NCBI GenBank assembly: GCA_013298125.1 | Contig: JAAFJP010000007.1 | Location: 62,001 to 126,000 of the forward strand | DNA: 64,000 nt | Source: Cytophagales bacterium | GTDB lineage: Bacteria; Bacteroidota; Bacteroidia; Cytophagales; Spirosomataceae | Direction of reading: 5' to 3' | Shown here: one piece after another, positions 18,956-43,150 of the stretch | Numbering within the stretch: the stretch's first letter is position 1 | Layout of the letters: every line of letters begins with the position of its first letter | Translations under genes and position numbers: made by a program | The notes under the pieces: model-generated | What the model saw: the letters and a program-made list of their open reading frames with translations, nothing else | What the model was told of the DNA's origin: nothing | The model's database searches: none

Positions 18956-18980
18956 TTCACCCCTCATTTTTTCAGCCTCA
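18956..18980. promoter_or_regulatory. Shared 25-bp element, copy 1 (candidate LytTR site)
   Basis: The 25-bp sequence beginning TTCACCCCTCATTTTTTC is repeated exactly at 20817. This copy lies 48 bp before the histidine-kinase gene. Exact conservation between two otherwise unlike intergenic regions points to a regulator site, most simply that of the LytTR protein encoded between them. Confidence 0.65.
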
Positions 18981-19028
18981 AAATAATTATTGCATGAGAA
19001 GTTCTGATTTTTACGTTAGTTTGCATCC

Positions 19029-20039
19029 ATGAAAGCCACTCAGAAATACCTCCTGATTCAGATTGCATTTGCCCTTGCGGTACTGGTCTGTTCGCCTAAA
19101 TTAATTTTCATTTTGGCAGACAATGCACGTTCGTTGCAAAATAATGTAAGTTGGACAGACTTTTGTGTTCAACTTATTTTTAGCTTTATTTTCGCATTAA
19201 TTATTTTGTATCTAAATGATAATCAAGCATTTAATCTTACAAAACGATTGTTATTTTCGTTTCTGATTTATCTATTTTGTACTGTTATTTTTATCCAATT
19301 ACATTTTAAGATTTTAGATATTTCAGAATCCCAAAAAATCATTAGAGTAGGTTATCATTTCCGAAATATGTTCATTTTGTGTATTTCTATTTTGACGATT
19401 CATTTCTTAAAAGCAACTCGTCAAAAACAAGAACTTATTTTAAAAAACAAAACCTTGGAAGCTGAAAATTTGAAGGCACAACTCAACAGTCTTCAACGAC
19501 AATTAAACCCTCATTTTCTGTTTAATTCGCTTAATTCGCTACAATCTTTGATGCGGGAGGACGTGGAGAAAAGTCAAATTTTTGTGCAAAATCTTTCGAC
19601 AGTTTTACGTTATTCGCTTGATTTTCAGAAAAAAGAATTAATAACCGTTTCCGAAGAATTCCAATTATTGGAAGCGTATTTATATTTACTGAAAATCCGT
19701 TTTGGAGATAAAATCAATTTGAAATTTGAGAAAGTTGAACTTGCCAAAGGTTTTTTACCACCTTTGGCTCTACAATTGCTCATAGAAAATGCAGTAAATC
19801 ATAATGAAATCTCAACACAAAAGCCCTTGACAATTCAGGTTATTTATGAAAAAGAATCTTCAACATTAAGTGTGATTAATAATTTTAGTCCTAAGCGTAA
19901 AAACACGTTAGGAGCTGGTCTTGGCTTATTTAACCTTAATAATCGTTACGAATTATTGAGTAAAAAACAAATGGAAATTACACAAAATGAGCATGAATTT
20001 AAGGTAATTATTCCTATTTTGACCAAAGAAAATAAATGA
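19029..20039 (+). CDS. LytS-type sensor histidine kinase
   Basis: 336 residues. The N-terminal ~125 residues hold four transmembrane helices; a short coiled coil follows (KQELILKNKTLEAENLKAQLNSLQ), then the His_kinase domain with the phospho-accepting His in NPHFLFNSLNSLQSLM (near 160) and an ATPase part with LLIENAVNHN and GLGLFNLNNR. No separate ligand domain is seen, so the membrane part itself is the sensor. It overlaps the response-regulator gene by 4 bp (ATGA). Partner: the LytTR regulator that follows. Confidence 0.93.
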   Translation: MKATQKYLLIQIAFALAVLVCSPKLIFILADNARSLQNNVSWTDFCVQLIFSFIFALIILYLNDNQAFNLTKRLLFSFLIYLFCTVIFIQLHFKILDISESQKIIRVGYHFRNMFILCISILTIHFLKATRQKQELILKNKTLEAENLKAQLNSLQRQLNPHFLFNSLNSLQSLMREDVEKSQIFVQNLSTVLRYSLDFQKKELITVSEEFQLLEAYLYLLKIRFGDKINLKFEKVELAKGFLPPLALQLLIENAVNHNEISTQKPLTIQVIYEKESSTLSVINNFSPKRKNTLGAGLGLFNLNNRYELLSKKQMEITQNEHEFKVIIPILTKENK

Positions 20040-20809
20040 ATATTTTAATAATTGAAGATGAAATAGAAGCCGCTAAAAACATCTTGTGGCTTTTGCAAAA
20101 AACTGAACCCAAGGCAGTAGTTGTAGGAACTATTGAAACGGTTTCGGAGGGAATTGAATGGCTAAAAAATAATCCTCAACCCGACCTTATTATCTCGGAT
20201 ATTCAATTAGCGGATGGCATTTCATTTGAAATTTTTGATGAAATAAAAGTGCAATGCCCCGTCATTTTCGCAACTGCTTACAACGAATATGCCCTCAAAG
20301 CCTTTGAAGTTCATAGCATTGATTACCTTCTAAAACCCATTGATGAAAAGGCTCTAAACAAGGCTTTTGAAAAATACAAAACGCTGAAAATCAATTCATT
20401 TGAATATATTTCAGAGAAAATTGGAAATATTTTTCAACAAAATCCTACGATTGAATCACAGTACAGAAAGAGTTTTTTGGTACGTTATCGGGAGAAAATG
20501 TTACCTATCAAAACCGAATCATTCACTTGTTTTCAGACCAAAGAAGGTTTGGTATATGGCAAAACGTCTGACGACAAATCTTACATTATTGAAAATACCT
20601 TAGAAGAATTAGAACTTCAATTACCCCCCAACGATTTCTTCCGTGCCAATCGCCAATTTATCGTTTCAAGAGAATCTATCGTTGAAATAGAATTTTACTT
20701 CAATGGTAGGTTATTACTCAAAACCAACCCTATATCTTCCGAAAATATCCTCATTAGCAAAGAGCGTGTCCCTGTTTTTAAGAAATGGTTTGAGGGATTG
20801 AAGGATTAG
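20036..20809 (+). CDS. LytTR family response regulator
   Basis: 257 residues. Receiver domain 1-120 with acidic pocket IIEDE, phospho-acceptor Asp near 55 (LIISDIQLADG), ATAYNEYA and LLKPI. The C-terminal LytTR DNA-binding domain (about 150-255) reads YREKMLPIKTESFTCFQTKEG ... FFRANRQFIVSRESI. It overlaps the kinase gene. Exact 25-bp copies in front of both the kinase and the following operon indicate autoregulation and control of the secreted operon; the link is inference. Confidence 0.93.
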   Translation: MNILIIEDEIEAAKNILWLLQKTEPKAVVVGTIETVSEGIEWLKNNPQPDLIISDIQLADGISFEIFDEIKVQCPVIFATAYNEYALKAFEVHSIDYLLKPIDEKALNKAFEKYKTLKINSFEYISEKIGNIFQQNPTIESQYRKSFLVRYREKMLPIKTESFTCFQTKEGLVYGKTSDDKSYIIENTLEELELQLPPNDFFRANRQFIVSRESIVEIEFYFNGRLLLKTNPISSENILISKERVPVFKKWFEGLKD

Positions 20810-20816
20810 ACCACAT

Positions 20817-20841
20817 TTCACCCCTCATTTTTTCAGCCTCA
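20817..20841. promoter_or_regulatory. Shared 25-bp element, copy 2 (candidate LytTR site)
   Basis: An exact copy of the 18956-18980 sequence, 113 bp upstream of the dehalogenase-like gene and just after the stop of the LytTR gene. Flanking bases differ from those of copy 1, so only the 25-bp core is kept. Confidence 0.65.
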
Positions 20842-20954
20842 CCCATTTATTCATGGTACTGTATTGAAGTTTTAGAGAATTTTGTAATCAAATTCTTTCA
20901 TAAAATACTATTACTCAAAATCTTCATCTTAGTATTCTTACTAACCAACAGCAC

Positions 20955-21977
20955 ATGAAATTATTATTGAATTCACTGGCAGTTTTTACATTATTAGGAA
21001 ATATATCCTGTAAAAAAGATGATGTCAATGCTCCAACAGTTACGCCTGTTGTCATAAAACCGCCATCCGATACAGTTTCGACAACTTCTGTATATGGAGT
21101 AATCTTACGCACGCCCGAAGCAAGATTTAAAGACTTGAAAGACTATAATTTCCAAGAAAACTACGTTTTTTTGGAAGGAACTGATAAACTCCGAATGCAC
21201 TATATTGACGAAGGAAAGACCAATAAAAAAGTCATTTTGTTATTGCACGGTAATCCTGCATGGGTCTATAATTTCAGAAAAATAGTGCCACTATTGGTTG
21301 CAAAGGGGTACAGAGTAATTGCTCCTGATTTGATTGGTTTTGGTAAAAGTGATAAACCAGCCAATCGAGCGGTGATAACTTACGAAAATCAAGTGGCTTG
21401 GACGGAGAGTTTTGTCAAAAAAATGAACTTAACCGACATCAATTTTCACGTGCAGGATTGGGGCGGATTGATAGGATTGAGAGTTGCTTTACAAAATAAA
21501 TCGCTTTTCTCTAAAATTGCTATTTCAAATACTGCCTTGATGGATGGAACTAATGTTACGCCCTATTTTAGGTCATGGCGTACAGGCTCGCAGACGGTTG
21601 CAACCTATGGTAGCGTGATGGAACAGGCAACTTTCAAGGAATTGAGTGCGGAAGAGGAAGCCGCTTACGATGCTCCCTTTCCAGAGGAACGATTTAAGGC
21701 AGCACCAAGAGAAATGCCCTTGAAAGTACCCATTTCACCAACCGACCCCGAAGGAATCAAAAACGCAACATTTAATCAGGATTTTGCTAAATGGAACATT
21801 CCGATTGTAACCATTTTTAGCATAAAAGATGATATTTTCAAAGGTGAAGAATTGAAAATTCAGCAATTCGTTGGAGCAAAAGGACAGCCACATTCCGTTG
21901 TGAAAGATGCTGATCATTTTATCAGAGAAGACCAACCGCAGGTAATGACGGATTTGTTGAGTACGTTTTTTAAGTGA
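20955..21977 (+). CDS. Haloalkane-dehalogenase-like alpha/beta hydrolase lipoprotein
   Basis: 340 residues. A lipobox-type start (FTLLGNISC) and a Pro/Thr-rich linker of ~40 residues precede an alpha/beta hydrolase fold. Motifs of the haloalkane dehalogenase subfamily are present: oxyanion HGNPAW, PDLIGFGKSDKP, nucleophile Asp168 in VQDWGG, and catalytic His321 in DADHFIRED. The Trp after the nucleophile and the Asn of HGN are the usual halide-binding positions. Known dehalogenases are usually soluble; this one is predicted to be envelope-anchored, and may act on another substrate. First gene of the operon controlled by LytSR (inference). Confidence 0.85.
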   Translation: MKLLLNSLAVFTLLGNISCKKDDVNAPTVTPVVIKPPSDTVSTTSVYGVILRTPEARFKDLKDYNFQENYVFLEGTDKLRMHYIDEGKTNKKVILLLHGNPAWVYNFRKIVPLLVAKGYRVIAPDLIGFGKSDKPANRAVITYENQVAWTESFVKKMNLTDINFHVQDWGGLIGLRVALQNKSLFSKIAISNTALMDGTNVTPYFRSWRTGSQTVATYGSVMEQATFKELSAEEEAAYDAPFPEERFKAAPREMPLKVPISPTDPEGIKNATFNQDFAKWNIPIVTIFSIKDDIFKGEELKIQQFVGAKGQPHSVVKDADHFIREDQPQVMTDLLSTFFK

Positions 21978-22007: not shown

Positions 22008-22514
22008 ATGAAACGAATAGCTTTAACCATCGTCATTTTCTTATTTTTTACGAAACTGTACGCCAAAACCGATAGCTTAACGGTCTATGTTTTTCTATCG
22101 GAAGATTGCCCAGTTTGTCAAAATCAGACATTACCCTTACGTGAATTATATAAAAATTTTAAGCATAAAGGCGTTGGATTTGTGGCTGTTTTCTCAAATC
22201 CATCCTCGGCAGATTCTACGATTTTATCTTTTCGTGCGAGATACGATCTGGCTTTCCCAGCGGTTTTTGATTCAACCCAAAAAATCGCTAAACGTTTGAA
22301 GGCACAAATTACGCCCGAAGTAGTGGTTGTTAATCATGCTGAAAATGAGGCAGTTGTCTATCGTGGAGCGGTTGATAATGCCTACCCAGCCTTGGGCAAA
22401 CGTAGAACCATTGTTACCGAACATTTCCTCAACGATGCACTGACAGCTTTATTGAAGGGTTCAAAAGAATATTTGTCAAACACCAAAGCGGTGGGGTGTT
22501 ACATTACTTTTTAG
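22008..22514 (+). CDS. Secreted redoxin/thiol-disulfide protein
   Basis: 168 residues with signal peptide (MKRIALTIVIFLFFTKLYAK). Thioredoxin-like fold with CPVC (SEDCPVCQNQTLPLREL), the AhpC/TSA-like core FVAVFSNPSS and cis-Pro region AQITPEVVVV. The C-terminal VYRGAVDNAYPALGKRR is recurrent in Bacteroidota redoxins encoded next to heme c/copper monooxygenases. It lies 30 bp after the hydrolase and 18 bp before the monooxygenase. It may keep the copper or heme cysteines of its neighbour reduced. Confidence 0.82.
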   Translation: MKRIALTIVIFLFFTKLYAKTDSLTVYVFLSEDCPVCQNQTLPLRELYKNFKHKGVGFVAVFSNPSSADSTILSFRARYDLAFPAVFDSTQKIAKRLKAQITPEVVVVNHAENEAVVYRGAVDNAYPALGKRRTIVTEHFLNDALTALLKGSKEYLSNTKAVGCYITF

Positions 22515-22532
22515 TCATAAATAATCAAAACA

Positions 22533-24122
22533 ATGAAACGATTTATCATTTTTTTAATGTCTATTTTGACAGTAAAAACGGCAACGGCTCAAACGCCTAC
22601 TTTTGCCGAAAATATTGCCCCAATTATTTACAACAATTGTACAAATTGCCACCGACAAGGTGAAGTTGGTCCGATGGCTTTTACCAATTATGACGAAGTA
22701 AAATCATGGGGAAAGATGGTGAAATTCGCTACCGAAACCAGATATATGCCACCGTGGAGTCCCGATACAAAATATCGTCATTTTGTGGGAGAAAGAACGC
22801 TCACCGACAGCCAAATCAAGCAAATTAAAGATTGGGTGGACGGTGGAATGCCCCGTGGAGATGTTTCAAAAGAGCCAAAAGTCCCCTCATTTCCAACAGG
22901 TTCGCAAGTGGGTACGCCTGATTTGGTGCTGACAATGCCCGCTGATTATAAAATTCTGGGCAATGGAAAAGATGATTACAAGGTTTTTGTATTACCTACT
23001 AATCTAAAAGAAAACAAAATAGTGCGAGCCGTTGAATTCAGAGCGGGCAATAATAAAATGGTTCACCATGTACGCATGGCTTATGAATCAAAAGGGGCTG
23101 CACGAGCGAAAGACGCACTCACTCCTGAACAGGGTTATGATGGTTTTGGGAGTTTCGGAGTACAGACAGACGGAAGTTTTGATACTTGGACTCCTGGTAA
23201 AAACGTATTACAGTTTCCCGACAATATTGGTCATTCACTCCCTGCCAATTCGGATATTTTGCTTCAAATGCACTACGCTCCTTCCACAATTGCAGGCACA
23301 GACCGTTCGAGTGTTAATTTATTTTTCAAGAATACCCCTGATTTACGTCCCGTGAAAGCATTTGGAATGTTGCACGCTCATTTGACGGGTGGTGCGGCAT
23401 CATTTACTATGCCAGCCAATACTGTAAAGAAATTTTACGCCAGAAGAACCGTTCCCACGGATATGTCGGTGATGAGTATCTATCCCCATGCTCATTTGTT
23501 GTGTAGAAATTGGGAGGCTTTTGCCACCACACCAACGGGCGATACCATCAAATTGATAAAAATTAACGACTGGAATTATAAATGGCAGGGTGATTATACG
23601 TTGCCGAAGATGATAAAAATACCGAGTGGCTCAATCGTTCATGCGTATGCGACCTATGATAATACAGCCAATAATTATTTGAATCCAAACAGTCCGCCAA
23701 AGTTGGTAACACTTGGTGAAGGAACGGCGGACGAGATGTACGTTTTTGGTTACACTTATCTGGATTATAAGGCAGGCGATGAAGATATTTCACTTGTGAC
23801 TAATTCTGTAACTACTCCTAATACTGTTCTGTCAAATACGGGGCTTCCCTTTGAACATGATACCCGCCTATATCCCGTTTATCCGAACCCGATGAGTCGA
23901 GATTTTTCAGTTGGATTTTATTTGGATAAACCTATGAATGTCAATTTATCAATTTATGATATTTCAGGGCGTTTAGTCAAAACGTTTTTAGATGAAAAAA
24001 TTGCCTCTGGCGACCACATTGTGCCTTTTCATTTGGATAATCAATGGGCTGCGGGAACTTATATTTTCAAATTGCTTGGCGATAATATAGATTTATCACA
24101 AAAAATTGTGGTGACCAATTGA
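22533..24122 (+). CDS. Secreted heme c / copper type II monooxygenase-like protein with T9SS signal
   Basis: 529 residues. Signal peptide, then a cytochrome-c-like segment with CTNCH (residues 36-40), then a PHM/dopamine-beta-monooxygenase-like domain with candidate copper ligands in MVHHVRM, LQMHYAPS and IYPHAHLLCR. The last ~80 residues (LYPVYPNPMSRDFSVGF ... GTYIFKLLGDN) form a type A T9SS sorting domain, so the protein is exported across the outer membrane or attached at the surface. The substrate is unknown. Third and last gene of the operon, followed by a terminator. Confidence 0.87.
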   Translation: MKRFIIFLMSILTVKTATAQTPTFAENIAPIIYNNCTNCHRQGEVGPMAFTNYDEVKSWGKMVKFATETRYMPPWSPDTKYRHFVGERTLTDSQIKQIKDWVDGGMPRGDVSKEPKVPSFPTGSQVGTPDLVLTMPADYKILGNGKDDYKVFVLPTNLKENKIVRAVEFRAGNNKMVHHVRMAYESKGAARAKDALTPEQGYDGFGSFGVQTDGSFDTWTPGKNVLQFPDNIGHSLPANSDILLQMHYAPSTIAGTDRSSVNLFFKNTPDLRPVKAFGMLHAHLTGGAASFTMPANTVKKFYARRTVPTDMSVMSIYPHAHLLCRNWEAFATTPTGDTIKLIKINDWNYKWQGDYTLPKMIKIPSGSIVHAYATYDNTANNYLNPNSPPKLVTLGEGTADEMYVFGYTYLDYKAGDEDISLVTNSVTTPNTVLSNTGLPFEHDTRLYPVYPNPMSRDFSVGFYLDKPMNVNLSIYDISGRLVKTFLDEKIASGDHIVPFHLDNQWAAGTYIFKLLGDNIDLSQKIVVTN

Positions 24123-24236: not shown

Positions 24237-25091
24237 TCAATTCGCCCGATAATCATTCGGAGTCATTCCTTCCGAAACCTTAAATGCTTTTGTGAAATAA
24301 GAAGGGTCATCAAAACCAAGCCAATAGCTGATTTCTTTGATGTTCATTTCGGTTTGTTTCAAAAGGCTTTTGGCTTCTTGCATCAACAATTGTTCAATCA
24401 AATTTTTAGGACTTTTACCCGTTTCTTCTTTGATTACTTCACTGAGGTATTTGGGCGTAATGTTCAGTTTTTCTGCATAAAAAGCCACCTCTTTGTTTTC
24501 GAGATATTGAGTGTTAATTAAACTACAAAATTCCTTGGCAATTTGTTTTTTTCGGGATGATTTTGAAGTAGGCATTTGGGTTTCAATCATCAATTTTTCT
24601 ATTTTTTCAATCATTGCCATCACCAATGCAGCCACCACCTTGGGTAAATGCTCTTGTGATTTAATAGAAATTAGAGTCTGATTAAAAAACTCAAAATCAA
24701 TGGCACTTAAAGTTATAACGTGCTGAATACCAGAGCGAAAGATAGGAGAGTCCACCAAAGGTTGAGCAATAATGGGTGACATAAAAATCTCTGGGGTAAA
24801 GAAAATGGCCGTATTTTTAAAACTCCAATTATCATCCATCCAATGCCTAATAATACTTGGACCAATGACCAATAAATCACCCGCTTTCAAAGTAAAATCT
24901 TCGATACCTACCCGCAAGTTACGCTCACCCTCATACACAAGACCAATGCCATAAAAATAATTTCGGAAAGGATAATCAGGAGAGTTTTCAGTAAACAAAC
25001 TCTGATTGGCTATAAAGAAGGATTCCTTGGTTTCGGTTTTGAGTACACCCTCTACAAAACGGTGGAATTCAAAGGTTTTTAAATCAGTCAT
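24237..25091 (-). CDS. AraC family transcriptional regulator
   Basis: 284 residues: cupin-like N-terminal sensor (ENSPDYPFRNYFYGIGLVYEG ... LKAGDLLVIGP) and C-terminal AraC domain with EVAFYAEKLNITPKYLSEVIKEETG and IKEISYWLGFDDPSYFTKAFK, ending MTPNDYRAN. No enzyme gene is next to it in an operon, so the target is unclear; it could act on the secreted redox operon, with which it is convergent, or elsewhere. Confidence 0.9.
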   Translation of the reverse strand: MTDLKTFEFHRFVEGVLKTETKESFFIANQSLFTENSPDYPFRNYFYGIGLVYEGERNLRVGIEDFTLKAGDLLVIGPSIIRHWMDDNWSFKNTAIFFTPEIFMSPIIAQPLVDSPIFRSGIQHVITLSAIDFEFFNQTLISIKSQEHLPKVVAALVMAMIEKIEKLMIETQMPTSKSSRKKQIAKEFCSLINTQYLENKEVAFYAEKLNITPKYLSEVIKEETGKSPKNLIEQLLMQEAKSLLKQTEMNIKEISYWLGFDDPSYFTKAFKVSEGMTPNDYRAN

Positions 25092-42787: not shown

Positions 42788-43150
42788 TTGGAAGCACAAG
42801 TCGAAACATACAATAGTAACTTTTTTGAAGACGATTTTCATACGTTGTCTTTCAAAGAGAGCAATTTTACGTTTAAACAAACTCGAAATTTAGTCGAAAT
42901 GATTAAATCAAGAATGAATATTTCGCATCTTGTGAAATTAGAGAAAAATGACTTTGAAAAGCCACTATATCTCATGAAAATCATGAAAGATTTGCGGGTT
43001 ATTCTTATCCTTGAAGAATATGATTCTTCACCCCAATATATTGTCACATTCCTTCGCATTATTCGACTAAATCAATTGGAAGAAACCCTTGAATCATTAG
43101 AAATTGAAGCCGCATATTCAGCCCTCAGTTTTTCTGATTTCTTCTGGTAA
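42788..43150 (+). CDS. Possible gene or 5'-truncated fragment, unknown function
   Basis: An open frame of 120 codons from a TTG, or 83 from an internal ATG at 42899, on the plus strand inside an otherwise minus-strand cluster. Its product is rich in Glu, Lys and Leu (KNDFEKPLYLMKIMKDLRVILILEEYDSS, NQLEETLESLEIEAAYSALSFSDFFW), unlike the Ser/Arg-rich translation of the opposite strand. It overlaps the 3' end of the DUF4304 gene by 79 bp. No ATG exists at the N-terminus, so it may be a decayed remnant. Confidence 0.3.
   Translation: MEAQVETYNSNFFEDDFHTLSFKESNFTFKQTRNLVEMIKSRMNISHLVKLEKNDFEKPLYLMKIMKDLRVILILEEYDSSPQYIVTFLRIIRLNQLEETLESLEIEAAYSALSFSDFFW

Follow-up and report, generated by a model that had tools for sequence, protein, structure and literature searches.

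In LytTR sites, a unit of 9-11 nt is repeated in tandem after a spacer of 11-13 nt (PMC4847170). For operators of the LytTR Regulatory System (LRS) the gap is in most cases 12 bp and the distance to the -35 element downstream is about 10 bp, and published LytTR sites in this upstream position activate (PMC6193735). An LRS-like arrangement in Bacteroides reads TCCGGTATTCA-11-ACCGGAAATCA, 11 bp, TGTA-19-TATCTTTG, with repeats that end in TTCA or ATCA and 34 bp from the repeat to the -7 element (PMC6193735). The YpdA/YpdB and BtsS/BtsR systems of E. coli pair a LytS kinase with a LytTR regulator and place a tandem direct repeat before the target promoter. The YpdB site, which is GGCATTTCAT twice, holds a TTTCA core (PMC4847170). 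AgrA of Staphylococcus aureus shares the LytTR domain with the system described here, though its half-site and its signalling input differ. Its input is peptide quorum sensing. Two AgrA molecules are bound and bend the DNA strongly (as cited in PMC4847170). Our literature search, which covered open-access papers, found no paper on the operator described below in this group, nor any on LytTR sites in Flavobacterium/Bacteroidetes beyond PMC6193735.

The window, meaning the whole 64,000-nt stretch that we analysed, carries two exact plus-strand copies of a 25-mer, one before a LytS-type kinase gene and one between its LytTR regulator gene and an operon of exported proteins (Table 1). The kinase gene shares 4 bp with the regulator gene, and the two form one operon with the make-up of a LytS/LytTR two-component system, as in the E. 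coli pairs; the E. coli targets are transporters, however, and the window regulator scores 92.1 bits against the NCBIfam BtsR equivalog, below its cut-off of 246. In a close relative (L117/L005), a gap of about 77 bp separates kinase and regulator, versus the overlap in the window. The 25-mers resemble LRS operators in their tandem direct repeats, their period of about 21-22 bp, their location, which leaves about 10-11 bp to the -35/-33 region downstream, and their distance to the -7 element (35 bp in the window, 34 bp to TATCTTTG in Bacteroides), as well as in the autoregulatory and co-regulatory layout that we propose. The system is nevertheless not an LRS, since it has a LytS-type kinase and a receiver-LytTR regulator where the LRS has a membrane inhibitor, and its sites differ in the T-tract spacer, the weaker half-site repeat and the second copy before an adjacent exported operon. 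The first protein of that operon, a putative dehalogenase, scores 313 bits against PRK00870, above the curated cut-off of 265. The sorting tail of the third protein is its sole Pfam domain, and at the operon's end there is an AraC-type gene.

Table 1. Candidate operators, putative promoter elements and genes of the locus, in window coordinates
Feature	Position	Strand	Remarks
Candidate operator copy 1, TTCACCCCTCATTTTTTCAGCCTCA	18956..18980	+	5' of kinase gene
Half-site cores of copy 1, TTCA and CTCA	18956..18959 and 18977..18980	+	21 bp apart
Putative -7 element TTAGTTTG	19016..19023	+	One mismatch to TANNTTTG; 35 nt after copy 1
LytS-type histidine kinase	19029..20039	+	PF06580 by domain match; membrane N-terminus; sensor domain unassigned
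LytTR response regulator	20036..20809	+	Receiver PF00072 and LytTR PF04397; proposed binder
Candidate operator copy 2, identical 25-mer	20817..20841	+	Begins 8 bp past regulator stop codon
Putative -7 element GAATTTTG	20877..20884	+	One mismatch to TANNTTTG; 35 nt after copy 2
Predicted lipoprotein, haloalkane dehalogenase subfamily	20955..21977	+	NCBIfam PRK00870; first gene of proposed target operon
Exported thioredoxin-like/redoxin protein	22008..22514	+	
Exported protein with CxxCH motif	22533..24122	+	Type IX secretion sorting tail (Por_Secre_tail)
AraC-type protein	24237..25091		End of exported operon

An earlier note on this DNA had placed an identical 25-bp element 48 bp before the kinase gene and 113 bp before the dehalogenase-like gene, and both distances are exact when measured to the ATG codons at 19029 and 20955. 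Its further statements, that a LytTR gene lies between the copies and that the rest of the intergenic sequence is different, also hold: the flanks differ right outside the 25-mer (AAAC-box-AAAT at copy 1, ACAT-box-CCCA at copy 2), and because identity ends at both box edges a long duplication is excluded. The note had named many copies elsewhere, lacking a LytTR link, as an outcome that would speak against a regulator site. Across the 5.85-Mb assembly, a search with up to 3 mismatches and two positions free found the 25-mer at these two places only, so this outcome did not occur, and the reversed 25-mer gave no match in the whole assembly at the same mismatch settings. Such a single-locus box is notable because the assembly holds 56 LytTR domains. 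Many of these domains sit in short open frames of 110-150 aa, giving a LytTR-rich regulator set. A third match, to an 18-mer with 2 mismatches at 43117, lies within coding sequence and was judged to be due to chance. The looser pattern TTCA-N8-TTTTT[CT]-N3-[CT]TCA occurs without mismatch at 12 places in the same genome, and the ten extra places were rejected as regulon members, all of them being within ORFs and without a -7 box at the right distance.

The boxes are kept in related genomes. G035, with a regulator 93% identical, preserves the entire locus together with both boxes, one of which has a single change. G002 belongs to the same genus and has a regulator that is only 46% identical, yet both boxes, in diverged form, occupy the same positions there (TTCACCCCCAATTTTTTCAGCTTCA ahead of the kinase, TTCATCCCTCAGTTTGTCAGTTTCA behind the regulator), while its genes downstream of the regulator differ from those of the window. 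In three-way alignments, conservation is highest in the box and poor in its flanks. This comparison, which the earlier note had proposed, thus found diverged boxes at both positions beside strongly diverged regulators. It also bears on whether the second box arose as a recent copy, by gene conversion or a small duplication, with no regulatory role. Such an origin would fit the full 25-bp identity, which extends to spacer bases that differ among relatives. It is very improbable, however, since both boxes exist in G035 as well, and in G002 with changes of their own, and the flanks diverge. Degenerate boxes also occupied the same two positions among the 118 distinct LytTR loci that we scanned. 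They start with TTCA, followed by about 8 variable bases, then TTTTTC, then three more bases and a closing TTCA.

Across 57 regulator clusters, the conserved core takes the form TTCA-N17-TTCA, a direct repeat whose period is exactly 21 bp and whose half-sites are separated by a T-tract. The earlier note had overlooked this degenerate tandem repeat, the putative functional core of the element, and also that each copy has a -7 box at the same distance. TTCA pairs with period 21 were found in 19 of 90 regions upstream of kinases and in 25 of 118 downstream of regulators; this was the sole peak, most other spacings occurring in about 1-2 regions. With regulators clustered at 70% identity, period 21 remained in 9 of 51 kinase-upstream and 10 of 57 regulator-downstream regions. 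Other spacings averaged 1.1 and 1.5 in this clustered set, and resampled sequence averaged 1.0 and 1.6, with highest counts of 5 and 8. In most of the 57 clusters a TTCA box could not be recognised. Reverse-strand TGAA repeats near the orthologues gave no peak at 21. Through this peak across relatives, the element agrees with the 9-11-nt repeats and 11-13-nt spacers of LytTR operators. Within the window only the TCA cores repeat clearly and the remainder of the repeat is weak, and the 25-mer contains a second internal repeat with a period of about 14-15 (CCCCTCA/AGCCTCA); we read the window box with period 21 because the relatives show it. A search around 30 LytTR loci of this genome for generic repeats of period 21, with the -7 box at the same distance, gave no peak, so we do not extend the box rule to the paralogues.

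Perfect Bacteroidota -7 boxes (TANNTTTG) in the relatives cluster 33-35 bp after the repeat. A locus-independent search of 151 family genomes for TTCA-N9-TTTTC-N3-TTCA-N30..35-TANNTTTG returned 22 matches and none for the reversed pattern. In the same genomes, control spacings of 24-29 bp and 36-41 bp gave 1 and 4 matches, three of the latter with same-looking boxes at 36-37 bp, and a period-22 control gave 2. The 22 matches come from related genomes in 9 genera and are not independent events. A LytS-type kinase lies within about 4 kb of 20 of them, two (L200, L201) by weak similarity only. The repeat is therefore found at a near-fixed distance just upstream of -35/-33 and is linked to a LytTR regulator gene, which in the window lies between the copies and is indicated elsewhere by the nearby kinases.

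The TANNTTTG box spans -12 to -5 (PMC9723704), which places the predicted starts in the window at about 19028 and 20889. Copy 1 is thus close to a near-leaderless kinase start, and the predicted leader of the exported operon is about 66 nt long. With starts at these positions, both copies would be absent from the leaders of the operons they precede, which argues against a box that acts as RNA, whether as leader element, terminator or attenuator. Copy 2 does start just past the regulator stop, as in many relatives, but neither copy folds beyond shuffled sequence (z -1.2 and -0.1) and no Rfam family matches, so we regard a role as RNA as extremely improbable.

The same geometry informs the sign of regulation. 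The boxes might bind the LytTR regulator as a repressor or mixed switch, giving negative autoregulation; position alone does not fix the sign, and copy 1 is near the almost leaderless kinase start. This is unlikely, however, since the site is upstream of -33 rather than over the -7 element or the start, and a near-fixed spacing to a poor -33 region is typical of activation, published sites so placed being activating (PMC6193735). Given the box spacing and the published LytTR layout, the cognate regulator most likely activates both promoters. Counting against this reading, each -7 box in the window misses one consensus base.

The protein that binds the boxes might also be another one, either a second LytTR protein or the AraC-type protein encoded at the operon end. 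A paralogue is conceivable because the genome has 56 LytTR domains, and the AraC-type gene is close at hand. We nevertheless consider another binder quite improbable: in distant relatives the boxes flank cognate kinase-regulator genes, the period and layout match those of LytTR sites (PMC4847170, PMC6193735), the box occurs at a single locus of the genome, and the AraC gene is not kept beside it in most relatives.

We therefore estimate a probability of roughly 85% that the 25-mers are a paired operator of the LytTR regulator encoded between them, which would activate both promoters. That regulator very probably binds them, and the system most likely switches on itself and the neighbouring exported operon. 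The reading as a regulator site, which the earlier note had put forward along with autoregulation and control of the three-gene operon, is well supported by diverged orthologous loci that keep the boxes, by the LytTR-like period and by the promoter-proximal position, though this falls short of proof. Beyond the sites themselves, we infer the identity of the binder, its phosphorylation and activation over repression. A signal at the LytS-type kinase would lead to phosphorylation of the regulator, and two regulator molecules could then bind the tandem half-sites, whose TTCA/CTCA cores lie two helical turns apart with the T-tract between. Bound directly upstream of the weak -33 region, the regulator may bring RNA polymerase to the -7 box that lies 35 bp downstream. 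Activation of the kinase-regulator operon would amount to positive autoregulation, with co-induction of the three exported proteins, namely the dehalogenase-like lipoprotein, the thioredoxin-like protein and the protein with a type IX secretion tail.

The cargo behind the regulator-downstream box varies among relatives and consists mostly of exported or membrane proteins: DUF3500 lipoproteins together with HupE/UreJ proteins, a fatty-acid hydroxylase group that also comprises a lipoprotein and a beta-lactamase-family protein, or an HlyD/RND pump. Because this cargo differs between relatives, the order kinase, regulator, box and exported cargo may, as a tentative suggestion, represent a portable module in the LytTR-rich Bacteroidota of this family, in which the paired box and the -7 distance stay, the cargo is swapped, and each such regulator, one of dozens of paralogues, has an operator private to it. 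These genomes are rich in LytTR proteins, for which our literature search found no described targets. A checkable rule, TTCA-N17-TTCA followed by 33-35 bp to TANNTTTG, allows this kind of regulator to be assigned to promoters from sequence and gives the exact bases to mutate. In the window, the box would link a LytS-type kinase to an exported dehalogenase-like operon.

Two further elements were observed at other loci. A sister box family, GGCTTTTTCCGTTTCA, has the same -7 spacing and occurs in other genera of the family, where it sits next to one or sometimes several LytS-type kinases (L190, L191, L192, L195-L198). Downstream boxes located past the regulator stop at L121, L123, L124, L130 and L104-L106 are preceded by GACGA and followed about 40-50 bp later by CGTC, flanks that are possibly an additional inverted element.
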